Origin: Verrucomicrobiota bacterium
GTDB taxonomy: Bacteria > Verrucomicrobiota > Verrucomicrobiia > Limisphaerales > JADLHS01
NCBI GenBank assembly: GCA_008933055.1
Contig: WBXK01000007.1
Coordinates: 1 to 34,501 of the forward strand
Reading direction: 5' to 3'
Length of the DNA stretch: 34,501 nucleotides
Below the pieces are notes generated by a model. The model was not told the DNA's origin. It ran no database searches and worked only from the letters and a program-made list of their open reading frames with translations. Of this stretch, positions 6,167-32,306 are shown piece by piece; position 1 is the stretch's first letter, and the number at the start of each line of letters is the position of its first letter. Both the position numbers and the translations under genes were made by a program.

Positions 6167-7297
6167 ATGCGTCTGTTGGACCGATATCTCCTGCGGGAAT
6201 TGCTCGCGCCGTTTGCTTACTGCCTCGGCGGCTTCCTCATGTTCTGGATCTCCTCTGATCTGTTCAAAGAGATGGGTGAATTCCAGAAAGCGCAGATGAC
6301 CCTCGGTGATATAGCCGAATATTATTTTGTTACCTCGCCGGAATTGATCTCAATCGTCCTCCCGGTCGCGCTCCTGCTCGCAATGCTCTACGCATTGACG
6401 CAACACGCGCGGCACAACGAGATCACCGCCATGCGCGCCGCAGGCATCGGTTTGTGGCGGCTAGCCTTGCCGTATCTGGTCACGGGCTTTTTTTTAAGCG
6501 TCGCTCTGTTTGTCATCAATGAATTGTGGTCGCCCGATGCCGATGTGCGCGGAGAATTCATCAAAGCTCGACACGCCCAGAAAGGAGGAGTCAAAAGCGA
6601 TCCGAGCCTCGTGCAGAACCTTGGATTCGTCAACGCCCGCGACGGACGCAACTGGACCATCAAGTTGTTCAACACCGAAACGATGGAGATGACTCAGCCT
6701 GTTGTTATCTCGACGGAGAGGGACGGTTCGCAACTTTCACTTTACGCGAGCAGCGCGGTCCGTAGTAATGGCATGTGGTTCTTTTTTTATGTGCGCGAAT
6801 TCAGGGGCGATCCCGGCTCTAAGACTGCGCCCGTGCCAACGATTCAAGCCGACGTAATGCCGCGTCCGGATTTCAACGAGACGCCGGACGAAATCCGCAG
6901 CGAATTGCGGATCAAGGCTCGGATGGTCGCAAAGAATCGTCACAATAAGAAAGACATCCCGCTTGCGGAGATTAAAGATTACGTCGCCATCCATCCGAAC
7001 ATCAGTGGCGCGGAAAAATCGTGGCTCGACACCATGATGCATAGTCGCATCGCGGGTCCGTGGAAATGTCTAGTGGTGGTGCTTATTGCGCTGCCGTTCG
7101 GCGCAGCGGCAGGCGCGCGGCGGAATGTTTTCGCGGGAGTCGCAGGCAGTATCGTGATTTGCTTTGCGTACTTTGTGCTGACGGAGATCAGTCTTGCAGG
7201 TGGCACAGCGGGGACGATTCCTCCGTGGCTTGCGGGTTGGTTGCCTAACATGGCATTTACATGGTTGGCTGTCTGGCTTACAAGGAGGGCGAGATGA
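6167..7297 (+). CDS. LptF/LptG family lipopolysaccharide export permease (YjgP/YjgQ)
   Basis: MRLLDRYLLRELLAPFAYCLGGFLMFWISSDLF...LPVALLLAMLYALTQHARHNEITAMRAAGIGLWRLALPYL...SRIAGPWKCLVVVLIALPFGA is typical of the YjgP/YjgQ family. Confidence 0.93.
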   Translation: MRLLDRYLLRELLAPFAYCLGGFLMFWISSDLFKEMGEFQKAQMTLGDIAEYYFVTSPELISIVLPVALLLAMLYALTQHARHNEITAMRAAGIGLWRLALPYLVTGFFLSVALFVINELWSPDADVRGEFIKARHAQKGGVKSDPSLVQNLGFVNARDGRNWTIKLFNTETMEMTQPVVISTERDGSQLSLYASSAVRSNGMWFFFYVREFRGDPGSKTAPVPTIQADVMPRPDFNETPDEIRSELRIKARMVAKNRHNKKDIPLAEIKDYVAIHPNISGAEKSWLDTMMHSRIAGPWKCLVVVLIALPFGAAAGARRNVFAGVAGSIVICFAYFVLTEISLAGGTAGTIPPWLAGWLPNMAFTWLAVWLTRRAR

Positions 7298-19525: not shown

Positions 19526-19798
19526 ATGCCACAAGCCATCATGGACCCAGGCGAAGTCCGGCGCTTTGCTGAAGAGCTCAAACGCTTCAATGCCGAGACG
19601 CAGAATCGCATGTCGCTTCTTCAGGCGCGTTTCTCCGCGCTAGGCGATACTTGGCAGGATCAGGAACACGCAAAGTTTTCCGAGGAGTTCCGCGACACGA
19701 TGAAGGTTTTGAAAAAGTTCATCGAAAGTTCCAACAATCATACGCCTTTCCTCCTGCGCAAGGCGCAGCGGATCGAGGAGTATTTGAATCAGCATTGA
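19526..19798 (+). CDS. WXG100-family (type VII secretion target-like) protein
   Basis: 90 aa, helical, with a central turn motif: VRRFAEELKRFNAETQNRMSLLQARFSALGDTWQDQEHAKFSEEFRDTMKVLKKFIESSNNHTPFLLRKAQRIEEYL. Adjacent to an FtsK/EccC-like ATPase. GAGAGGA upstream of the ATG. Confidence 0.8.
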   Translation: MPQAIMDPGEVRRFAEELKRFNAETQNRMSLLQARFSALGDTWQDQEHAKFSEEFRDTMKVLKKFIESSNNHTPFLLRKAQRIEEYLNQH

Positions 19799-19801
19799 CC
19801 G

Positions 19802-20374
19802 ATGCCCGATCGCGCCAAAGTCACGTCGTTAGAAGCCATCGAGGATTTGCGCGCCAAGCTAGTCGTCTATCGCGACAAGGCCAGGCGTGTCCTCGACGAG
19901 GTAGATCATGACGTCTCGCGCAATCGCGTCTGGCTTGAGAACGAACGCCCGAACTACTGGCAAAATCAGATTCGTCTCCGCACCCGCGCTCTGGAGGAAT
20001 GTCAGCAAGAACTTTTCAGCGCGCGACTTTCTGGCCTGCGCGATTCTTCCTATGTTCAACAAGCCGCCGTGCAAAAAGCCCGTCGCTCCATCCGCGATGC
20101 CGAGGAAAAGTTTAGAATCACCGGACAATGGGCGAGGCAGTTCGATCATCGTGTCGAAGCTCCCGCCCGTCAGGTGGAGCAACTTAGGCAACTTTTGGAT
20201 CATGATCTCGGTAAAGCGGTGATGTGGTTGAATGAACTCATCAAAAGTTTGAGCGCTTATGCGGAGCTTTCTCCGAGTGCTGCATTACCCACCACCACGC
20301 TTGAAGCCCCATCGTCCTCGCCGTCGACTGTTGGAAATGAATTCGATTGCGTGGATAAACCAACACAATCATGA
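19802..20374 (+). CDS. Coiled-coil protein of the WXG100/FtsK cassette
   Basis: 190 aa, strongly helical and charged (EAIEDLRAKLVVYRDKARRVLDEVDHDVSRNRVWLENERPNYWQNQIRLRTRALEECQQELF), starting 3 nt after the WXG100 stop. Confidence 0.75.
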   Translation: MPDRAKVTSLEAIEDLRAKLVVYRDKARRVLDEVDHDVSRNRVWLENERPNYWQNQIRLRTRALEECQQELFSARLSGLRDSSYVQQAAVQKARRSIRDAEEKFRITGQWARQFDHRVEAPARQVEQLRQLLDHDLGKAVMWLNELIKSLSAYAELSPSAALPTTTLEAPSSSPSTVGNEFDCVDKPTQS

Positions 20375-20577
20375 GCGCCAGCCAGAACAGATTGATGGCG
20401 TTGACGAACAACCTCCGCGCAGAGTGGGAGCAGACCAAGAGTTATTGGAACGACGCCAAGAGCCGTGAGTTCGAAGAGCGTTTCCTTCAAGAACTCTTCC
20501 CTGCTGTCAATCAAGCCATCAGCAACATAGAATCTCTTGAACGAACCCTTCAAAAAATCCGCAGCGACTGTGAATGA
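20371..20577 (+). CDS. Second small WXG100-like helical protein
   Basis: 68 aa: MSASQNRLMALTNNLRAEWEQTKSYWNDAKSREFEERFLQELFPAVNQAISNIESLERTLQKIRSDCE. ATGA overlap with the upstream ORF. Confidence 0.65.
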   Translation: MSASQNRLMALTNNLRAEWEQTKSYWNDAKSREFEERFLQELFPAVNQAISNIESLERTLQKIRSDCE

Positions 20578-23500
20578 AATGCTGACTGTAGCTCAAACCG
20601 TTGACTTGCTCGTGCTCGTGCGTCAAAGCTTGAGCGATTCGGCAGTCCGCAAGGGCGAGCTTGAGCGGGACTTCGCAATGCGTTCACACAAGTTGCGCGT
20701 GCAGTTTGAATCCGCACTCACAAACGCGAAATCTCGGGGTCAGGCCGAATCAAACTCGGCTAATGCCGACTTGCTAGAGCAGCAAAATCAAGTGCAGGCA
20801 GCGTTTGTGCGACGCAAGAAACGCATCGCCGAAGCATTGGACAACGCGCGCATAAAACGCCTCGCACAAATCGAAGCCGAGGAAGGCAAGCATACGTTCG
20901 AGAATCAAAGTCACATCCTCGAAACCGAACGAGCTCGGGAGGAAGAAACGAACAACAACAAGGCGAACTACGAAGCGTTCACCGCCAAACTTGCCAACGA
21001 ACGTAATGCCTTGAGCCAGCTAGATCGCCGCGCTCGCGCCACATTCTCGGGATTTCGCTCTCTCGCCAAACTCATCTCTGAAACTCCCGCGCCCGCTACG
21101 CTCGACACCAACGCTCATGAAAGCCAACTTTTAGAGCAGCTTTACGAGTGTCGCGATAAGGCCGAGCGCGAACTGTCCCGCACGAACTCGCTAGTGCTGC
21201 CATTGTTCTTTCGCGTGTTCCGAGTTTGGCTGTGTTTGTTGCTGATCATGGGCTTGCCATTCGCGTTCGTGCCGGAGTTGCAAAAGTTAGATTTTCAATC
21301 CGTGCCCGCAAACGTCTGGCTCATCATGGGCGCGAGTGCGGCGGGAATTGTAATGTTGTATTATCTGGCAAGAATGCTCGCGACACCTCGCGCTAAAGCC
21401 GCGGCGCTCCCGATCAGTTCAACGTTCAAGCTAGCCGATATTTGTGCGCAGAAATCCGAAGCCAGCTTCAATGCCGAAACGCAACGTATCCAGTCTATAC
21501 ACGCCAATGCGTCGCAATTGCTGAATGCTCGATGGAAGCAAGTGAGCGGAGATGCGAGGACGTTGCGCGAAGGTTGGAACGACCGGCTGAACGATCAAGC
21601 GCGTAGGCTACATCTCGCCAACGAGGAACGGAAACGCCTTTGGTTGAATAGCGTCAACGAGCGCCACGCCGAGTTGGCAGCGAATTTACAACAGCGGCTT
21701 TCAACTGCGGTGAACCATATTGAATCAGGCTATGCGAGCGATCTCATGCGCTTAACGGCGACGCGCGATGAGGGTCAAAAAAGTTTGTACGATCAATGGC
21801 GGAACGTGACGACTCCTATGTTGAAGACATTGAGTGTGGCCGGAAGTGCTGCGGACGAGGCGTTTCCGGCATGGCGCGCGGAGTTGTGGCAAAAGTTCAC
21901 ACTGCCAGAAGATTTCAAACACGCGGCCAAGTTCGCCACGCTGCATGTGCCCACCGCCAAGATTTCCAGAGAGGCCGTTGAACTCAACTCAACACAAACA
22001 GCCTCAACGGGGGATTTAAATATCGCGCTAGTTTTGTCTGTGCCGCAACAGGCTTCAGTTTTGTTTGAGACAAAAACTTCCGGTCACGAGCAGGTTATCG
22101 GAGCTCTGAATAATCTCATCCTGCGCCTGCTCACCAGTGCGCCACCGGGACGAATCGCATTCACGATCTTTGATCCGGTCGGTCTCGGGCAAAATTTCGC
22201 GGGCATCATGCACCTCGCCGATTTTGAGGATCGTCTCATCAACAGCCGTATTTGGACGCAGCAGGCGCAGATCGAGCAACGCCTCGCCGATCTCAACGAA
22301 CACATTGAAAAGGTCACGCAGATGTATCTTCGAAATGAGTACGCATCGCTCTCCGAATACAATGCCCAAGCAGGCCGTCTCGCGGAGAAATATCAATTCC
22401 TCGTCATCGCCGACTTCCCCACGAACTTCAGCGAAGTGGCGGTGAAACGTCTACAAAGCATTGCGGCCAGCGGGTCGCGTTGTGGGGTGCATATCTTGAT
22501 ACACTGGGATCAACGCAAGACTGCGCCCGTGGAATTCGTGGCAGAGGAATTGCGCAAAAACTCCATCTGCATCGTGCCCAAAGGTGAAGGCTTCGCATTA
22601 GCTCAGGCGAATTGGGAAGGAACAACGCTTTCGCTTGACGCCCCGCCGGAAGCTGAACTCGCGACGAAGCTGCTTCACCAGATCGGCAAATCTAGTACGG
22701 ACTCGTATCGTGTCGAAATGCCGTTCGCTGAAGTTGCTCCCGAAGATAACGAGCTCTGGAGCTTGGATACAACAAACGAGCTTCGTGTGGCCGTCGGGCG
22801 CACAGGCGCAACCAAACTTCAATATCTGGCGCTCGGTCAAGGAACGCGGCAGCACGGACTGATCGCCGGTAAAACGGGTTCAGGTAAATCGACGTTGTTC
22901 CACGTCGTTATCACGAACCTCGCCCTCTGGTGCAGTCCAGAGCAAGTCGAGTTCTATCTGGTGGACTTCAAGAAGGGCGTCGAGTTCAAGACATACGCCA
23001 CCCACAAATTGCCCCACGCGCGCGTCATCGCCATTGAGAGCGACCGTGAATTCGGCCTCAGTGTGCTTCAACGCGTGGATGAGGAACTCAAGAGGCGCGG
23101 GGATCTTTTTCGAAAAATCGGTGCGCAAAATATTGCGGGTTACAAAGCAGCGGGCGGTTCGCAGGCGATTCCTCGCACGTTGTTATTGATTGACGAGTTT
23201 CAAGAATTGTTTGTGGAGGATGATCGCGTGTCACAAGGCGCAGCGTTATTGCTGGATCGCATTGTGCGTCAAGGTCGTGCGTTCGGAATTCACGTTCTGC
23301 TCGGTTCTCAAACGCTTGGCGGCGCGTATTCACTTGCTCGCGCGACGATTGGCCAAATGGTTGTCCGCATCGCGCTCCAATGTAATGAAGCTGACGCCTA
23401 CCTAATCATGAACGAGGACAATCCCGCGCCACGTCTACTCTCGCGTCCCGGCGAAGCGATCTACAACGACGAGGGCGGTGCGATCCAGGGGAACAGTCCG

Positions 23501-24457
23501 TTCCAAGTCGTTTGGTTGCCCGATAAGGTGCGTGACGAATGGCTGGGCAAAGCGGCGAAGCTCGCAGCCAGCAGGCATGTTTCAGCCGTGCCCATCGTCT
23601 TTGAAGGCAATGCTCCAGCGAATGTGGGCGACAACCCGCTGCTGCGTTCACTGCTTGATGCGAGTTCGTTGCAAACAACAAATTCACCACGCATCTGGCT
23701 TGGTGCGCCCAACTCGATCAAAGGCCCGACCGAAGCATTATTTCGTCGGCAGAGTGGTAGTCATCTGATTATCGTCGGCCAACGCGAGGAGACGGCTTTA
23801 GGAATGCTGGGGGTCGCGTTGATTTCACTGGCGGCACAACAAACAAGAGCAGGTTCGCGGTTTATCGTATTCGACACCAGTGCGCCGGATTCCGCCGAGG
23901 CGAAGTTCCTCGACCAGATCGTTCAAACGATTCCGCATGGAGTGAAACTCGCGCGTGCGGGAGAGGTGGATGAAGTCATGTCCGAGCTCGCCGCGGAACA
24001 GCAAAAGCGCTTGGAACAAGGCGGCGCAGCAGGCGCAGAGACATTCTTGTTCCTCCACGGCTTGCAGAAGAACAAGAAACTCAAGTTCGACGAGGAGATG
24101 AGTTTTTCGCTGGACGCGAATGCGAGCGCGCATTCGGGTTTACAACTCAACAAGCTGATCATCGAAGGCGCGGGGGTTGGGTTCCACGTCGTTGCCACGT
24201 GCGACAGCTACAACAACGTCATGCGTTGCCTGAGTCGCAAGGCCGTGAGCGAATTCGAGATGCGTGTTGTGTTCCAGATGAGTTCCAACGATTCGGCTAG
24301 TTTGATCGACTCGCCACAAGCCAACGATCTCGGCCTCCATCGCGCCATCCTATTCAACGGCCAGGAGGGCTGGACCGAGACGTTCAGGCCTTACGCGTTG
24401 CCGGAAGCGGAGTGGATTGCGATTGCCGCAAAATCATTGAGACGTCTGCACGGATGA
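20570..24457 (+). CDS. FtsK/SpoIIIE (EccC/EssC-like) ATPase, membrane-anchored, three ATPase-like modules
   Basis: N-terminal coiled coil, two TM helices (VWLCLLLIMGLPFAFVP; VWLIMGASAAGIVMLYYLA), Walker A GKTGSGKST (22868-22894), Walker B RTLLLIDEFQELF, and FtsK-like HVLLGSQTLGGA. The track start (TTG 20537) is less likely than GTG 20570 or ATG 20579. Confidence 0.9.
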   Translation: MNEMLTVAQTVDLLVLVRQSLSDSAVRKGELERDFAMRSHKLRVQFESALTNAKSRGQAESNSANADLLEQQNQVQAAFVRRKKRIAEALDNARIKRLAQIEAEEGKHTFENQSHILETERAREEETNNNKANYEAFTAKLANERNALSQLDRRARATFSGFRSLAKLISETPAPATLDTNAHESQLLEQLYECRDKAERELSRTNSLVLPLFFRVFRVWLCLLLIMGLPFAFVPELQKLDFQSVPANVWLIMGASAAGIVMLYYLARMLATPRAKAAALPISSTFKLADICAQKSEASFNAETQRIQSIHANASQLLNARWKQVSGDARTLREGWNDRLNDQARRLHLANEERKRLWLNSVNERHAELAANLQQRLSTAVNHIESGYASDLMRLTATRDEGQKSLYDQWRNVTTPMLKTLSVAGSAADEAFPAWRAELWQKFTLPEDFKHAAKFATLHVPTAKISREAVELNSTQTASTGDLNIALVLSVPQQASVLFETKTSGHEQVIGALNNLILRLLTSAPPGRIAFTIFDPVGLGQNFAGIMHLADFEDRLINSRIWTQQAQIEQRLADLNEHIEKVTQMYLRNEYASLSEYNAQAGRLAEKYQFLVIADFPTNFSEVAVKRLQSIAASGSRCGVHILIHWDQRKTAPVEFVAEELRKNSICIVPKGEGFALAQANWEGTTLSLDAPPEAELATKLLHQIGKSSTDSYRVEMPFAEVAPEDNELWSLDTTNELRVAVGRTGATKLQYLALGQGTRQHGLIAGKTGSGKSTLFHVVITNLALWCSPEQVEFYLVDFKKGVEFKTYATHKLPHARVIAIESDREFGLSVLQRVDEELKRRGDLFRKIGAQNIAGYKAAGGSQAIPRTLLLIDEFQELFVEDDRVSQGAALLLDRIVRQGRAFGIHVLLGSQTLGGAYSLARATIGQMVVRIALQCNEADAYLIMNEDNPAPRLLSRPGEAIYNDEGGAIQGNSPFQVVWLPDKVRDEWLGKAAKLAASRHVSAVPIVFEGNAPANVGDNPLLRSLLDASSLQTTNSPRIWLGAPNSIKGPTEALFRRQSGSHLIIVGQREETALGMLGVALISLAAQQTRAGSRFIVFDTSAPDSAEAKFLDQIVQTIPHGVKLARAGEVDEVMSELAAEQQKRLEQGGAAGAETFLFLHGLQKNKKLKFDEEMSFSLDANASAHSGLQLNKLIIEGAGVGFHVVATCDSYNNVMRCLSRKAVSEFEMRVVFQMSSNDSASLIDSPQANDLGLHRAILFNGQEGWTETFRPYALPEAEWIAIAAKSLRRLHG

Positions 24458-24497
24458 ACATTTTTATCCCCAGCGAGTCCAAGTGTGGGATTCAATT

Positions 24498-25766
24498 ATG
24501 AAGACAACTGATAATAGTTACGACGTGATAATCATCGGCGGCGGTCCGTCGGGCGCGAGTGCCGCCGCAATCCTTGGCGAATACGGCCACCGCGTGCTGG
24601 TGTTGGAACGTGAGAAGTTCCCTCGCTATCACGTCGGCGAATCAATGATTCCATTCACATTCCAACCGATGCAACGGCTCGGTCTTGTTGACATGATGAA
24701 GAAGTCGGTATTCCAAAAGAAATTTAGCGTACAATTTGTTGCCCCGAATGGTAAGGCGAGTCAGCCGTTTTATTTCTACAACCGTTACGACCGTGAAACC
24801 GTGGCGCAGACCTGGCAAGTGTTGCGGAGCGAGTTTGATGCGTTGCTGCTAGATCATGCTCGGAAACGTGGTGCTGAGGTGCGGCATGAGGTGACGGTAA
24901 AAGAACTGATCTGGGAGAAGGCCGAAACAGAACGCGTCGTGGGCGTTCGGGCTCAGCTCGCGTCTGGCGAGATCGTGGAGTTTTCGGCGCCGATGACACT
25001 GGATTGCACGGGCAAGGAAAGTTTTACCGCTATGCGAAATGGCTGGCGGCAGAAAGACCCGTCACTCAACAAGGTCGCGGTGTGGACTTACTTCAAAGGC
25101 TCGAAGCGCGAGAGCGGCATTGATGAGGGGCAGACCACGGTGGCGATGATCCCCCAGAAAGGCTGGTTCTGGCACATCCCCCAGCACAACGACATGGTCA
25201 GCGTGGGTGTCGTGGCCGAGGGGAAATATTTGGCGCGCGACGGCATCAAGGATCCGAAAGCCATGTTTCATCGTGAAGTCGGCGAAAATCTCTGGATCAA
25301 GGATCACCTCTCAGTCGGCGCAAGTACGGGCGAGTATTTCATCACGAGTGAATACAGCTTTCACTCGCGCCATTGTGGCTGCGAAGGGTTGTTGCTCGTG
25401 GGTGATGCGTTTTGTTTTCTCGACCCCGTGTTCAGCAGCGGACTTCTACTCGCTCTCAAGAGCGGTGTCATGGCGGGCGAAGATGTTCATCTTGCGCTCA
25501 CAAGGAAGGATTTTTCACCAAAGCTGTTTGAATGTTACGCCCGCTGCATGCGCCAAGGCATCGAGAACATGAGAAAGCTCGTCTATGCGTTCTACGATCC
25601 GAACTTCTCGTTCAAGCAGGTGATCGATAAATATCCCGAAGCTGGGGATGAGATCACGGATTGCCTAAGCGGTGATGTGAACAAAGACTTCGACCCTCTC
25701 TGGAAAAAATTTCGTGAGTTCGCCCCCCTGCCGGAGGATTTGAACGTCGGCGGACCACTGGTATAA
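24498..25766 (+). CDS. Flavin-dependent halogenase-like FAD oxidoreductase
   Basis: DVIIIGGGPSGASAAAILGEYGHRVLVLEREKFPRYHVGESMIPFT (FAD-binding), GWFWHIPQH (matching the WxWxIP motif of flavin halogenases), and GLLLVGDAFCFLDPVFSSGLLLALKSG. Confidence 0.85.
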   Translation: MKTTDNSYDVIIIGGGPSGASAAAILGEYGHRVLVLEREKFPRYHVGESMIPFTFQPMQRLGLVDMMKKSVFQKKFSVQFVAPNGKASQPFYFYNRYDRETVAQTWQVLRSEFDALLLDHARKRGAEVRHEVTVKELIWEKAETERVVGVRAQLASGEIVEFSAPMTLDCTGKESFTAMRNGWRQKDPSLNKVAVWTYFKGSKRESGIDEGQTTVAMIPQKGWFWHIPQHNDMVSVGVVAEGKYLARDGIKDPKAMFHREVGENLWIKDHLSVGASTGEYFITSEYSFHSRHCGCEGLLLVGDAFCFLDPVFSSGLLLALKSGVMAGEDVHLALTRKDFSPKLFECYARCMRQGIENMRKLVYAFYDPNFSFKQVIDKYPEAGDEITDCLSGDVNKDFDPLWKKFREFAPLPEDLNVGGPLV

Positions 25767-25955: not shown

Positions 25956-28900
25956 TCACTGATACAGCGCGCGATAGAATTGATTCGAAACATTAGCGGG
26001 CGGGTCGTCGGTGAAGCTGAGTGAACCGAAGGGATTCGCCAGATTTGTCAGCACAGACCACGTGATCAGGTTTGTCGAGGTGAGGAGTTGAATATTGAAG
26101 CCAGCCTCACCGTTAATGCCCAGTTGAACTCGTCCATCTTTCAATCGTGCGATGGAAGTGAACGACAACGGCGCGGTCGGTGTCAGCGTTAGCGCAGCGA
26201 CCGAACTCGTCACCGAGCCGCTCGTGTTTGTCACTGCTACGGAATAATTCCCTGCGTGAATGACCTGCGCGTTCACGCGCGTGTAGCTGCTGTTGGTTGC
26301 GCTTGCGATATTTGTTCCGTTCAACCGCCATTGGTAAGCAAGTGGGGCCGTGCCGCCTGCACTGGCGCTCAACGTAGCGTTGCTGCCGACAGGGGCGGTC
26401 ACGTTTTGCGGTTGCGCCGTGAGATATGGCGGCACATTCGTGACGAAGCGTTCCACGCGGACATTATCTATCAGGCCAAAGCTCAAATTGGTGTTGTCAG
26501 AGACCGATGTGAAGGAATCCCAGTAGCCGAGAAAAATGTTGCTTGCGCTCAGAGTGGCGTTGGTGATCGCGGCGATCTTCAATGCGTCAATGAACCATTC
26601 TACGGTGTTGTTTGTCTTGTTGATGATGACGTCCCGCCACGCGAAGCCGACGGAGCCGACGGCGAGTGATCCCGTTTGTTGCGGGAAGCTTGATTGTTGA
26701 AGCACGGGCGCAGTCTGGCCTCCGGGAAATGTGCCGGCATAATACGGATGACCGTTGCCGCGCACGTTGGGTTCGTTGCCGCCCAACCAGACACCACTGT
26801 TGGTTTGCTGCAAAGCTGTCCCAACATAAGCGCGCCAATCCGGCAGCGTGGCTGATGTGTCTGTGGCCTGGCCTTCGCCATCGGCGGCGAACCACACTCC
26901 GTCAGCCGAGCCCGCGTTCCACTGCACATTGTTGCCCGTGGTACCGACGCCAGCGGTGAGATGCTCTGTCGAACCCGTGCCCCCCAGTGGAAAAGGGCCG
27001 TTAGCATTAATCCACATATCGAAACGCAGCCGATAATTTCCGCCAAAGCTTTGGCCGATGGGCGAAACGCTGACGGCGGCGACGTTGGTGGTGCTCAGGT
27101 TCGCTTCGAATCGCAAGCCACGCGTCGTGCCGCCAACTGAGTTGGGGGCAGATGCGATTCCCAGGGGTGAATAATCCCAATTGAAGGTAATCCGCGTGTC
27201 GGTCGCTGAGCGATTCGTCGTCCAGTTCGCGCCAGTGTTCACGTCGAAGTTATCAGCGAAAAGGGTTTGCGCTGGGGGTAAAATCACTTCTAGTAGCGCC
27301 ACCTGGCTGGTTGCCGCGCCGAACGGGTGCGTCACTACACAGACGTAGTTACCGGAAATTGCGGGTAAACAATTTGTGAGCGTGAAGGCAAGATTTGTCG
27401 CGCCGGAAATATTGTCGCCGTTGAAACGCCATTGATACGCGAGTGGTGAAGTGCCGGATGCGCTGACGGTGAGAGTAGCGTTTGAGCCTTGCACGACGAA
27501 CTGGCCAACGGGTTGCACATTGATGGAGGGAGAAACATTCGTCGCAGCGGGCAGGCTTAGAAATATGAGGGCTGCGCTCATGTATTGCGTGCGAACCGTG
27601 AAGCTCGTGATCGTTTCGAATGGAAAACCCATGAGTAAAACACGCCCGCCGCCTGCCAAGCCGTCGTATTGCACTGCGCTCGCGCCGCCGAGTCCGCCGA
27701 TGTAATTCAACGCCACTGCCGCGCCCGGACCCTTTGGTGAAAGTTTGTCGGGTGTTCGGACGGCATAGATTCCTTTTGAGCCATCGTCAAACAAGCCGTT
27801 GGAGTTGCCAACGAACAATCCGCCGCCCGCAGGCATGACGGTGTAGCTCGCGGCGTTGTTGTTCGCATCCGCGCCAAGAGCGGCGTGGAGTTGGTCGTTG
27901 AGGAACGCGCGATCCCCAGCAGTCGGGCCGGACGCGCGATCCAAGTCCCATGCGATTTCTGCGCCGGAGGCAAGCAGCGCTCCGCCTGCCGCGAGAAATG
28001 TGGCGATGCGCGTCTGCTCCGTGGCGCTGAAGGTTTCGTCTGCAACGGACTCATTGCCGCAAGCCCAGATGACAATGGAATAATTCGAGAGCGCAACCGT
28101 GCCTGCGCTGACGGCTTGGTTCTGGCACGAATCAAAGAGCGCGCCTGCCGCAGCGAGTGCTTTGCCGTGCGTCACGACGTAATCAAAGGAGTTGTTCCAC
28201 GCGCCGAAAACGCGTTCGATTGCGCCAGTCGCGTCTGCTGGAGCGTAACCTTGCACCGTTAAATCCACCCGCAGGTTTTGAGTGCGCTCGAAGCGATCAT
28301 ACGCATTCACGAACAAAACTTTTGCCGCGCCGTTGGTCGAAGGCGCGCGACAGGCGACCACTTCAGAAGCCATAGACTCGCCGCCGCCATTCGCTGCCGC
28401 GACCCGGAAGTAGTGATCTGTGTTTACGGGTAGGTTGGAAATGGTGATGCTGGTGACATCGCCAACGGAGATGGCGCTGCCGAAGCCAAACCCATTGGTC
28501 GAACGGTAAATCAAGTAATTCGTCGGCGACTGGCTTCCGCCGGTGCTGACGGGCGCGGTCCACGAAAGTGTGATGTTGCCGTTCGTGCCTGAGGAAATGG
28601 CGCGGAGATTGGTCGGCGGTTCAGGCAAAAACAACAGCGGCGCTGGGTTGTTAGTGTCGAACGTGTTCATGAATTTGATGACGCCGTGCATCGCGGCTTT
28701 GCCCACGGCTGCGCGGGCTTTGGGATCGCGCAAGAGTTGAGCGTCCAAGGCACTGTCGTGAAACGCGACCTCGATAATCGTCGCCGGCATTTCGTAATTG
28801 AACAGGCTGCCATCAATCTCAGAGTAACCGCCGCTGAATGTGTGCGTGGTTTTGTTGAACCACGGAATCTCGAGCGGTGGCGAACCGAGCGTGACGAGAT

Positions 28901-30122
28901 CGGCATTCACCTCAGCTCCGGTGATTTCGGCTAGGTCGGCTTGATTAGGCGTGGGATCAGTGGTGATCAAACCCACTGTGCCGCGCCCACCTCCAGCGTT
29001 GGAGTGAAAGCTTATGTGAACGCGGTCGTAAATATCCCCAGCAGCTTGGCGATTCATCTCCGCGGACATTATCGGAGGACACGACCAGCTGTCGCTTTCA
29101 TCATTTCCAGCGCCCTCATAGAGCGCAGAGGATTGTCCTTGGGCGAGATTATACTGAACCCAATAGCGCATGTTTTCCTCCTCACGAGGATAAGTGGAAA
29201 CGCCGCTGCCGCGATCCACTGAGCCCATGCCGTTGCCGAACCGAATGGCATCTGCGATCACAACGTTGCCCTGTGCAGTGCTGCGAAGATTGCTGATGAC
29301 AACCGCCCCGAAAGTGGAGTTCGATCCAGCGTTGAAATAATATTCGCCCAGATAAATCCACCCGTTGCCCACCATGTGATGAGGGAGACGGATAAGCGAT
29401 TCACCCCCGGTATGACGGACGCGATAAAGTTGATGGCCGCGATCTGAACCCGAAAGCGTCCACGCATAGACCGGATAATATCCCGCTGCGGGAATCGTGG
29501 GCGTGTAAGTAGCCGTGGCGGTTTCAGCGACATTGAGTGAGGCGAAGCGATACGGCACATCGCCAGGGCTGCCGAAGTAAACCGCGTTTGAACTAAAGCC
29601 CCACGCGCCAGAGAACGTGACGGCGGCATCATCGTTGTCGAGGACGACCTCGTTGGTTTGGTGGCCAAGTGGACGGAACGAGACCACGGTAGCTCCCGCG
29701 TTGAAGCAGTATTGCGCGAAGAAGTTGAGTTGATCGAGATTGCCATAGTCTTCGTTCATCTCGTTGCCGATGCCGCGCTGCAATCGCCACTGCGTGGGAT
29801 CGTAAGTCCAGCCGTGACCGCTGTTCATGAATACGATTTTGCCCGAGAGCGCGCCTTGTGGTTGTTGCGATGAGGGGCCGAACGCGCTGAACAGTGATGG
29901 CGTGACCAAGTCGCCCATCGGCGCAGGTGGTGCGTAGCCCTCCGACACATCCGGTGTGAAGATGGATTGCAGATTATCGAGCTTGGGCGCGAGACGGTCT
30001 TCGTGATCGCTTTCCTGCGCCGTCGAACTCGCGACAATTAAACTGTACGCCGTGAGCAGCGCAAACCGATACCCGCCGGATAAAGCAGAACAAACAGACA
30101 TACGACTTGGATACTGTTTCAT
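25956..30122 (-). CDS. Secreted multidomain protein: golvesin-like domain, N-acetylmuramoyl-L-alanine amidase-like domain, FN3, Ig-like repeats
   Basis: Signal peptide from MKQYPSRMSVCSALSGGYRFALLTAYSLIVASSTAQ. Amidase-like RVHISFHSNAGGGRGTVGLI...NYEMPATIIEVAFHDSALDAQLLRDPKARAAVGKAAMHGVIKF. FN3 PPTNLRAISSGTNGNITLSWTAP. Two Ig-like modules (LAYQWRFNGDNISGATN; LAYQWRLNGTNIASATN). Confidence 0.85.
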   Translation of the reverse strand: MKQYPSRMSVCSALSGGYRFALLTAYSLIVASSTAQESDHEDRLAPKLDNLQSIFTPDVSEGYAPPAPMGDLVTPSLFSAFGPSSQQPQGALSGKIVFMNSGHGWTYDPTQWRLQRGIGNEMNEDYGNLDQLNFFAQYCFNAGATVVSFRPLGHQTNEVVLDNDDAAVTFSGAWGFSSNAVYFGSPGDVPYRFASLNVAETATATYTPTIPAAGYYPVYAWTLSGSDRGHQLYRVRHTGGESLIRLPHHMVGNGWIYLGEYYFNAGSNSTFGAVVISNLRSTAQGNVVIADAIRFGNGMGSVDRGSGVSTYPREEENMRYWVQYNLAQGQSSALYEGAGNDESDSWSCPPIMSAEMNRQAAGDIYDRVHISFHSNAGGGRGTVGLITTDPTPNQADLAEITGAEVNADLVTLGSPPLEIPWFNKTTHTFSGGYSEIDGSLFNYEMPATIIEVAFHDSALDAQLLRDPKARAAVGKAAMHGVIKFMNTFDTNNPAPLLFLPEPPTNLRAISSGTNGNITLSWTAPVSTGGSQSPTNYLIYRSTNGFGFGSAISVGDVTSITISNLPVNTDHYFRVAAANGGGESMASEVVACRAPSTNGAAKVLFVNAYDRFERTQNLRVDLTVQGYAPADATGAIERVFGAWNNSFDYVVTHGKALAAAGALFDSCQNQAVSAGTVALSNYSIVIWACGNESVADETFSATEQTRIATFLAAGGALLASGAEIAWDLDRASGPTAGDRAFLNDQLHAALGADANNNAASYTVMPAGGGLFVGNSNGLFDDGSKGIYAVRTPDKLSPKGPGAAVALNYIGGLGGASAVQYDGLAGGGRVLLMGFPFETITSFTVRTQYMSAALIFLSLPAATNVSPSINVQPVGQFVVQGSNATLTVSASGTSPLAYQWRFNGDNISGATNLAFTLTNCLPAISGNYVCVVTHPFGAATSQVALLEVILPPAQTLFADNFDVNTGANWTTNRSATDTRITFNWDYSPLGIASAPNSVGGTTRGLRFEANLSTTNVAAVSVSPIGQSFGGNYRLRFDMWINANGPFPLGGTGSTEHLTAGVGTTGNNVQWNAGSADGVWFAADGEGQATDTSATLPDWRAYVGTALQQTNSGVWLGGNEPNVRGNGHPYYAGTFPGGQTAPVLQQSSFPQQTGSLAVGSVGFAWRDVIINKTNNTVEWFIDALKIAAITNATLSASNIFLGYWDSFTSVSDNTNLSFGLIDNVRVERFVTNVPPYLTAQPQNVTAPVGSNATLSASAGGTAPLAYQWRLNGTNIASATNSSYTRVNAQVIHAGNYSVAVTNTSGSVTSSVAALTLTPTAPLSFTSIARLKDGRVQLGINGEAGFNIQLLTSTNLITWSVLTNLANPFGSLSFTDDPPANVSNQFYRALYQ

Positions 30123-30257
30123 GGCCTGAACTGATTGTGGATTAAAAATATCTCTGTAACTGGCGTTCACCAAGAAGTATTCAAGGTGAACGGCTAGGTG
30201 CAAGGGTGTCAGGCATTGTCCCCCGGGGTTGGGGGAAAGGCGTAAGCTGGCGTTGCG

Positions 30258-32306
30258 ATGCTCAACCTGTGCAGGCAGACTGCGGTGGTTGAAATGGACG
30301 ACTCGCCTCCCAACCAAAAGAATGAATTGCGACCGAACGACTGGCTAAACCTAGAACCCAATTTGGCAGTCGGTGCTGGGATCATCGCGCTGCTCTCATT
30401 GATAGCCTACTGGCCCTCACTCGGCGGCGGGTTTGTCTGGGATGACCTGATTCTGGTGGCGAAGAATCCTTTGGTCACCGGTGAATCGAGCCTGAGCAAC
30501 ATCTGGTTCGCGGGAGATTTCAGCCTAAGCACGGTGGCGATGTGGATGGAGTGGCTCGTGTTTGGGAAGAATCCGACAGGCTATCGCGTAGTGAATCTTT
30601 TGCTACACATCGGCAGCGCGCTGATGATCTGGGGGATTCTAGCCCGGCTGGATTTTCGAGCGGCGTGGTTCAAGGCGTTAATTTTTGTGCTGCATCCGAC
30701 GTGTGTGGCGTCTGTGGCTTGGATTTCCGAACTGAAAAACACTCTCTCGCTCCCGCTATTTCTCGCAAGCGTATGGTTTTTTCTAAAAACTGAAACACCT
30801 TCTGCACCACCTTCACATTCAACCAAGAACCCTATCGTCGCCTACCTCACTTCCATCGCATGTTTCCTCCTTGCGCTGATGGCGAAGACTTCCACCGTCA
30901 TGCTGCCAGTATTTTTTTTGTTGATCGCGTGGTGGCAACGGGGTCGTATCGCTAAACGCGATGTCTTGAAATCCGTTCCGCACTTCGCGCTCGCCTTCGC
31001 GTTCGGATTAATGTCCGTCTGGTATCAAACGCATCAAGCGATTCGCGCCGTGATCCCGCAACAGGAAAATCTTTTAGAACGATTGCTCACAGCGGCGATG
31101 GCAATCTGGTTCTACCTTTGGAAAATCATTTTTCCCATCAACCTCAGCATGATCTACCCGCGCTGGGAAATTTCCAGTATAACGCCGCTCACTCTACTTC
31201 CGCTGTTTTCTCTCGTCGCAGTCGCAGTCGGTCTTTGGTTAGCGCGACACAAGAGGCCTGTGGCGCGCGCCAGCTTGTTCACGCTTGCCGCATTCGTCAT
31301 TGCTCTATTTCCCGTGCTCGGATTCTTCGACATGTATTTCATGATCTTCTCGCGCGTATCGGATCACCTCGCGTATCTGCCCTGCGCCACGCTGCTGCCG
31401 CTCGTTGCCTCTGCCGTATTCCTTTTGAAGAACGCGCGCATACGGCTGCTTGTTGCCGTGATGATGGTTTGCCCGCTTCTGATTCTGACATTTCAACGGG
31501 CAAAAGTTTTCCACTCCGATGAATCTCTTTGGCGGGATACTGTGGCTAAAAATCCCAACGCTTGGAACGCTCACAACAATCTCGCATGCAACCTCGCCGA
31601 GCGCGGGCAACTCGACGATGCGATCAACCATTTTGCTGTGTCGCTCGAACTCAACCCCAAAAATGCCGGAGCGCAACAGAACTATGCAAAGGGGCTTGTG
31701 ATGAAAGGAAAGTTCTCCGAAGCCGAACCGCATTTTCGCGCCGCACTAGAACTCAAACCCGACGATGCCGACACGCACGTCTCTTACGCCGATGCGTTCG
31801 CAAGCAATCGCAGACTCGCCGAGGCTATCGAGCATTATCGCGCCGCTTTGGACATCAAGCCCGACGTGAAAACACGCCTCCGACTCGCGCCGTTGCTAGC
31901 TGCCACGGGTCGCACCGAAGACGCGATCCAAGAGTTCCGCGCCGTGTTGAAGGAACAACCGGATTCCGTCGAAGCACTCAACAACCTCGCGTGGATTCTC
32001 GCCACCTGCGCTGAACCGAAGCTTCGGAACGGCGAAGAAGCCGTCGGTTACGCCGACAAAGCGTGGAAGCTCACTGGTGGAAAAGAAGCGACGATGCTCG
32101 GCACGCTGGGGGCAGCCTACGCCGAAGCGGGACAATTCACGAATGCGATCATGGCAGCCCAGCAAGCCATTGAGCTGGCGCAAGCATCTGGGAACTCCGG
32201 TTTCGCGCGAATGAACCAGCAGTTGCAACAACTCTATCGCTCAGGCCGCGCTTACCACGAGAAACCCAGAACTTCTCCCGCTACGAACACGACCCCAACT
32301 CGGTAG
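30258..32306 (+). CDS. Polytopic membrane protein with C-terminal TPR repeats (TMTC/GT-C glycosyltransferase-like)
   Basis: LIAYWPSLGGGFVWDDLILVAKNPLV...GYRVVNLLLHIGSALMIWGIL...LIFVLHPTCVASVAWISELKNTLS, then TPRs (NAWNAHNNLACNLAERGQLDDAINHFAVSLELNPKNAGAQQNYAKGLVMKGKFSEAEPHFRAALELKPDD). Confidence 0.85.
   Translation: MLNLCRQTAVVEMDDSPPNQKNELRPNDWLNLEPNLAVGAGIIALLSLIAYWPSLGGGFVWDDLILVAKNPLVTGESSLSNIWFAGDFSLSTVAMWMEWLVFGKNPTGYRVVNLLLHIGSALMIWGILARLDFRAAWFKALIFVLHPTCVASVAWISELKNTLSLPLFLASVWFFLKTETPSAPPSHSTKNPIVAYLTSIACFLLALMAKTSTVMLPVFFLLIAWWQRGRIAKRDVLKSVPHFALAFAFGLMSVWYQTHQAIRAVIPQQENLLERLLTAAMAIWFYLWKIIFPINLSMIYPRWEISSITPLTLLPLFSLVAVAVGLWLARHKRPVARASLFTLAAFVIALFPVLGFFDMYFMIFSRVSDHLAYLPCATLLPLVASAVFLLKNARIRLLVAVMMVCPLLILTFQRAKVFHSDESLWRDTVAKNPNAWNAHNNLACNLAERGQLDDAINHFAVSLELNPKNAGAQQNYAKGLVMKGKFSEAEPHFRAALELKPDDADTHVSYADAFASNRRLAEAIEHYRAALDIKPDVKTRLRLAPLLAATGRTEDAIQEFRAVLKEQPDSVEALNNLAWILATCAEPKLRNGEEAVGYADKAWKLTGGKEATMLGTLGAAYAEAGQFTNAIMAAQQAIELAQASGNSGFARMNQQLQQLYRSGRAYHEKPRTSPATNTTPTR

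Follow-up and report, generated by a model that had tools for sequence, protein, structure and literature searches.

A predicted four-gene WXG100/EssC-type cassette conserved in the Verrucomicrobiota

Results

Four coupled genes and their conservation

We analysed a 34,501-nucleotide (nt) stretch of DNA from a Verrucomicrobiota bacterium (GenBank assembly GCA_008933055.1, 78% complete; contig WBXK01000007.1), referred to below as the window, in which a cassette resembling a type VII secretion system (T7SS) had been proposed from sequence alone. The cassette consists of four plus-strand open reading frames (ORFs), 19526-24457, in a single, tightly and translationally coupled operon. Gene A (19526-19798) encodes a WXG100-like helical-hairpin protein of 90 amino acids, gene B (19802-20374) a 190-residue coiled-coil protein, gene C (20371-20577) a short WXG100-like helical protein of 68 residues and gene D (20570-24457) a predicted EccC/EssC-type ATPase of 1295 residues, with a coiled coil, a transmembrane (TM) hairpin, another coiled coil and three RecA-like domains. 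A and B are separated by 3 nt and the B/C junction is an ATGA overlap. D may start at a GTG at 20570, overlapping C by 8 nt, or at an ATG at 20579, 1 nt past the stop codon of C; the same 8-nt overlap start was found in 64 of 105 related loci. This layout is exactly as originally described, and LptF/LptG, encoded at 6167-7297 of the window, support the accompanying claim of a diderm host.

In comparison with a locus of the same genus (L006), gene A showed differences of 0.01, 0.01 and 0.32 at first, second and third codon positions respectively, and third positions of the cassette diverge from those of relatives far more than first and second positions. This pattern indicates purifying selection on all four genes, strongest on A. 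Because third-position differences so exceed the others, and because the A-B-C-D order is repeated in about 100 verrucomicrobial loci, far beyond chance, we regard A, B, C and D as real genes. The full set of 111 loci counts the window twice and some loci doubly (e.g. L003/L032), so that counts are slightly inflated. A was not recognised at 11 loci, nine of which are truncated at contig ends; in the other two (L055 and L077) it is apparently truly absent.

The long ATPase was found in 59 of 96 genomes (the source genome included) and in 12/12 of the family, with ordinary FtsK present as a separate gene. A phylum-wide sample contained A in 24 of 390 genomes, mostly as one copy. We compared the tree of D with that of ordinary FtsK in 22 genomes and found that they were correlated (Spearman 0.75, Mantel P 5e-4). 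Since the D tree follows the housekeeping FtsK tree, the cassette has been retained mostly by vertical descent with losses, and it is largely intact across much of the order. No close copy was found in the phage and plasmid records searched. Beyond the four genes, each neighbour family occurred in at most 6 of 80 loci; families that overlap the cassette genes on the opposite strand or in a different frame were excluded from this tally. The four-gene order on which the original prediction depended is therefore conserved in relatives, with no recurrent extra partner. EsaA, EssA, EccD, EccE and mycosin did not appear as conserved neighbours of the cassette (no genome-wide search was made for these), and EccB was detected in 0/15 cassette-bearing genomes, although the EccB control was also silent.

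Two loci (L063, 3060-3966, and L025) carry about 900 base pairs between B and C. Judged by their translations, the extra ORFs in L063 resemble a HigB/HigA-type toxin-antitoxin pair, apparently inserted, and were dismissed as a cassette component.

D resembles EccC and EssC

D matched Pfam FtsK_SpoIIIE (PF01580) with 110.9 bits over the stretch 738-915. Among NCBIfam models it scored 113.7 bits for EccCa, 94.1 for EccCb and 86.7 for EssC versus 29.6 for FtsK, all below the equivalog cut-offs. An AlphaFold2 model of residues 215-1295 (mean predicted local distance difference test score, pLDDT, 79) placed three RecA-like domains behind a long coil. Foldseek matched this model best to T. curvata EccC (4nh0, E 7.6e-29) and to EssC; FtsK scored about 1e-9. 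A sequence-to-structure search likewise favoured EccC/EssC over FtsK. In a tree of the middle domain, all verrucomicrobial D sequences fell on one side of a split with support of 0.997, apart from toxin-type relatives, EccC, YukB and FtsK.

The first RecA-like domain of the model (22016-22636) has a degenerate nucleotide site: in the alignment, the Walker A and B consensus is missing there. The middle domain (22769-23521) is intact, with the Walker A motif GKTGSGKS at 22868-22891 and the Walker B region LLLIDEFQE at 23174-23206; across 66 aligned sequences these motifs showed little or no variation (here and below, the conservation alignments of D, A and C comprised the window and the named set only). 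From the model and the alignment, the third domain (23690-24451) is also degenerate, GQREE replacing Walker A. The TM hairpin (residues 216-234 and 245-263; 21215-21358) is made of two hydrophobic segments; of 94 D sequences, 82 have both and 93 have at least one. Relatives of D in Caballeronia, Deinococcus and loci L143, L144 and L145 lack TM segments, and those in Helicobacter, Rhodococcus and L146 have one hydrophobic segment each.

Taken together, profiles and model identify D as a type VII (EccC/EssC)-type ATPase. A chromosomal FtsK identity was ruled out by the HMM (hidden Markov model) scores, the Foldseek results and the domain tree; the membrane FtsK/EccC-like ATPase foreseen from the sequence thus groups apart from chromosomal FtsK. 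Matches of D in defence libraries (SspH, mads_8, HerA) were confined to the motor domain. Two D homologues (G022:C38:109553-113428 and G052:C66:7060-10887) carry one in-frame TGA each, which may reflect decay, sequencing error or readthrough.

A and C share a W-x-D turn

A scored 32.7 bits against the Pfam WXG100 family (PF06013, cut-off 27.3) and fell below the TIGR03930 cut-off. Among solved structures, its profile matched H. pylori HP0062 (3fx7, E 1.8e-10) best, and entries for EsxB and EsxA ranked lower. A is 90 residues long in every complete homologue, with a mean identity of 80% among those aligned. The turn between its helices (19652-19660) carries W-x-D in place of W-x-G, a replacement seen in 100/100 homologues; W43, D45 and F51 (W-x-D-x5-F) were invariant in 69 aligned sequences. 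A weak match to the A profile at L147 (G282:C162:3778-4452) lies within a 224-residue protein that has an N-terminal hydrophobic segment and is not accompanied by the other three genes.

C carries the same W-x-D-x5-F pattern, in register with A, and its residues W26, D28, F34 and C67 were invariant in 73 aligned sequences. When the C profile was run over 19,602 ORFs, the top non-self matches were all A proteins. A direct comparison by hhalign gave no support for A-C homology (1.8% probability). We nevertheless favour kinship of the two because profile ranking and motif register agree, and C is probably a half-size WXG100 relative. Thus, of the two WXG-like proteins originally proposed, A passes the Pfam cut-off and C, which scores below the cut-offs, is a probable member; the W-x-G motif did not hold, the residues being W-x-D in A, C and their verrucomicrobial homologues.

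C ends in Asp-Cys-Glu (20566-20574). Its Cys codon is TGC in 18 loci, and with this codon D cannot start at an overlapping GTG. The tail persists in these loci, which points to a constraint at the protein level and rules out the C-terminal Cys as a by-product of the D start.

B is a helical hairpin with a variable tail

In the AlphaFold2 prediction, B folds into a pair of long helices that run antiparallel (residues 6-77 and 80-156; pLDDT 95-98 across both) and ends in a disordered tail. The tail is rich in Pro, Ala and Ser, of low complexity and variable in length, the whole protein spanning 164-232 residues among homologues, in whose tails no added domain was recognised. Pfam and Protein Data Bank (PDB) searches yielded generic coiled-coil or helical matches only, and no enzymatic or recognisable toxin domain was detected. 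The helical PDB matches were dismissed as generic, none reaching a Foldseek E of 0.001 or below. A hit to the TacA1 antitoxin (19.4 bits, cut-off 21) was treated as coiled-coil noise, TacA1 not being among the families matched by most homologues. B was single-copy in 15/15 genomes, and no dispersed proteins with a B domain were found.

Relatives of the cassette, some carrying toxins

Proteobacteria, Campylobacterota, Deinococcota and Actinomycetota also have related operons of a WXG100 protein, a coiled-coil protein, a small protein and an ATPase, and some of these operons carry toxins. A Helicobacter plasmid has, in succession, genes for a WXG protein (WGD), a coiled coil fused to a WHH nuclease (PF14414, E 1.1e-11), a SUKH-1 immunity protein, a 77-residue protein and an FtsK-type ATPase. 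A Caballeronia plasmid encodes, in order, VWA, WXG (WQD), a 436-residue coiled-coil protein, proteins of 113 and 76 residues, the ATPase, CARF, VWA, PP2C and kinase. The C-terminal half of the 436-residue protein had no Pfam match, and its likeness to the D-ExK coiled-coil nuclease of CoCoNuT systems would be one of position only. Plasmids of Rhodococcus and Deinococcus hold rearranged versions.

Two verrucomicrobial loci (L143, G452:C189, and L144, G308:C1) are TerY-P/CoCoNuT-like, with VWA, WXG, a coiled-coil protein of 436-442 residues, small genes, an EssC-like ATPase, VWA, and PP2C-like and kinase-like genes. Both genomes also hold an A of the verrucomicrobial cassette type at a separate locus, and in G452 this second locus was read as a full A-B-C-D cassette. 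By position and shape, B appears to occupy the slot of the coiled-coil nuclease of these relatives, homology between the two being unproven.

Other genes in the window

A FAD (flavin adenine dinucleotide)-dependent halogenase-like protein (24483-25766; Trp_halogenase, 103.7 bits) begins 26 nt after D and has no conserved linkage to the cassette in relatives. On the minus strand, 25956-30317 encodes a large protein of 1453 residues that is probably secreted or displayed at the surface; it contains Golvesin C-terminal, fibronectin III and immunoglobulin domains.

Discussion

Possible function of the cassette

We read the cassette as a stand-alone, membrane-anchored, toxin-free WXG100/EssC-like machine, a verrucomicrobial branch of the partly toxin-carrying operons described above, that would serve in export or as a scaffold, with B as cargo or adaptor, and we place middling confidence in this reading. 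In its favour are the conserved gene order with no other constant neighbour, the affinity of D to EccC/EssC, its single intact and invariant Walker site, its TM hairpin, the likeness of A to HP0062, the nuclease that relatives encode in the slot of B, the single-copy B without an added domain, and the D tree that follows FtsK. In such a machine the middle domain would drive an inner-membrane hexamer of D, and A and C would serve as helical adaptors or partners of the WXG100 type; the Asp-Cys-Glu tail of C would be a candidate docking peptide for D, and B would be the protein translocated or displayed. As B seems to stand where relatives have their coiled-coil nuclease, the machine would export a structural coiled-coil protein and not a toxin. 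The lack of YxxxD/E and of a fourth nucleoside triphosphatase (NTPase) domain, together with the conserved Asp-Cys-Glu tail, would fit a changed mode of recognition, and the cassette may be a housekeeping export device. More tentatively, it could be a diderm, vertically inherited, toxin-free export machine of WXG100/EssC type that is complete with its four genes and makes up a subtype of its own, with a bare coiled-coil hairpin protein as conserved cargo and, in place of YxxxD/E, the tail on a half-size WXG protein.

Several observations weigh against this reading. L077 (7275-11840) lacks A, and L055 (7778-11849) lacks both A and B, despite several kilobases of upstream sequence. C remains under the family cut-offs (Pfam WXG100 16.3 bits, E 0.012; TIGR03930 24.4 bits, cut-off 44.85). 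The YxxxD/E export tail was found in 0/100 A and 0/105 C proteins and in 8/103 B proteins, within the tail of B. Profile matches of B to the coiled-coil N termini of the toxins were weak, and homology was not established. YukD and YukC were detected in 0/15 cassette-bearing genomes, with a positive B. subtilis control, and the neighbour families of 80 loci contained no conserved outer-membrane partner; there is therefore no evident route across the outer membrane.

Alternative explanations

The main alternative, which we consider rather doubtful, is that D is a membrane-anchored intracellular scaffold or a stress or defence ATPase, with A, B and C playing a structural part at the cytoplasmic face and no secretion taking place. 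Such a role would suit the hyper-conservation of A (80% mean identity at a fixed 90 residues), the lack of a YxxxD/E tail and of an outer-membrane component, and the presence of related ATPases in TerY-P/CoCoNuT-like loci, which are predicted defence systems without TM helices (PMC11090510). It is opposed by the TM hairpin of D and its overall EccC/EssC fold, by the absence of recurring TerY-P genes beside the cassette, and by characterised T7SSs, in which EsxA/WXG100 proteins are export substrates or partners (PMC11217815).

It is improbable that the cassette is a mobile weapon against other bacteria, with its toxin genes at other places in the genome. A table footnote of PMC3482391 terms operons of this kind mobile T7SS, and relatives were found on plasmids; however, the mostly vertical D tree, the search of phage and plasmid records and the copy numbers of A and B, with no dispersed B-domain proteins, all argue otherwise. 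Very improbable is a decayed toxin-delivery operon that has lost its nuclease domain and immunity gene and whose remainder lingers. Relatives do hold a coiled-coil nuclease and an immunity gene at the position of B, and the tail of B is variable and of low complexity, but decay would not yield purifying selection on four genes, invariant Walker motifs and descent across families of the order. That D translocates DNA as a member of the FtsK/HerA superfamily, assisted by helical accessory proteins, as its PF01580 match and the HerA-like defence ATPases matching its motor domain might suggest, is scarcely credible given its NCBIfam scores (29.6 bits for FtsK versus 113.7 for EccCa), its three tandem domains, its EccC/EssC top folds and the separate ordinary FtsK retained in the genomes examined.

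An export or scaffold machine of the kind we favour would have few parts, with four genes, usually one copy per genome and no toxin complicating the genetics, and the cassette lineage includes a named Verrucomicrobium strain record (BvORR106, L076). Such a system would make it possible to study the requirements of an EssC-type motor for moving a WXG100 protein through a diderm envelope, and the role of these machines when they are not weapons. It also bears on whether Gram-negative WXG100/EssC-like pairs secrete anything; they have not been confirmed as secretion systems and the question is open (PMC10765036).

Comparison with known systems

The cassette shares with T7SSa, T7SSb and T7SSc-j (PMC11217815) a membrane-anchored multi-ATPase and a WXG100 protein, and in structure D matches EccC and EssC best. 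In contrast to these systems, D has three RecA-like domains, only the middle one intact, against four predicted NTPase domains; the cassette has no EsaB/YukD, EssB/YukC or other conserved partner, carries W-x-D, lacks YxxxD/E and resides in a diderm host. The original prediction of a T7SS-like cassette stands as regards the WXG100-type protein, the EccC/EssC-type ATPase, the diderm host, the synteny and the want of any other T7SS component found; as a T7SS proper, the cassette fails on several defining features.

Among solved structures, the nearest relative of A is HP0062 of H. pylori (3fx7, 2gts), a dimer of helical hairpins that carries W-x-D (as WRD). It is encoded in a cluster with HP0066, a gene with an FtsK/SpoIIIE domain (PMC3397514, PMC4978471). 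This pair belongs to another phylum, and HP0066 and the intervening genes are likened to the cassette by description only.

The extension of CoCoNuT systems (PMC11090510) comprises a three-domain EssC-like ATPase with an N-terminal coiled coil and a central domain that alone is predicted active, two WXG100-like proteins, one without WxG, and a coiled-coil protein, and it also occurs stand-alone. The verrucomicrobial cassette shares the three-domain ATPase, its N-terminal coiled coil, the two WXG100-like proteins and the coiled-coil protein. In the CoCoNuT-associated form the coiled-coil protein is a nuclease and the ATPase has no TM helices; unlike this III-A/TerY-P extension, verrucomicrobial B has no nuclease domain, a TM hairpin is present in D, and the cassette is not flanked by VWA, PP2C, kinase, CARF or McrBC genes.

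Stand-alone combinations of a solo WXG protein and a three-domain YueA-like/EssC-like ATPase were recorded in 2012, with verrucomicrobia listed (PMC3482391, table footnote 6); there the middle of the three HerA/FtsK domains alone is described as active. The cassette agrees with these solo systems in its three FtsK/HerA domains, its active middle domain (as judged by motif) and its adjoining WXG100-like proteins. It departs from that account in being mostly vertically inherited, and the footnote itself does not include B, C or the TM hairpin. The suggestion that the cassette was of an uncharacterised kind is therefore unsupported as worded, as stand-alone operons already appear in PMC3482391 (in the footnote cited), PMC4978471 and PMC11090510. 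Our literature search brought up no paper about the verrucomicrobial form. The kind is thus already recorded, as an unproven stand-alone or mobile operon of WXG and EssC-like ATPase genes, and what is new here is a distinct verrucomicrobial variant, marked by the TM hairpin of D, W-x-D in both small proteins, the Asp-Cys-Glu tail of C and a B protein that is predicted to be a bare 150-residue helical hairpin.

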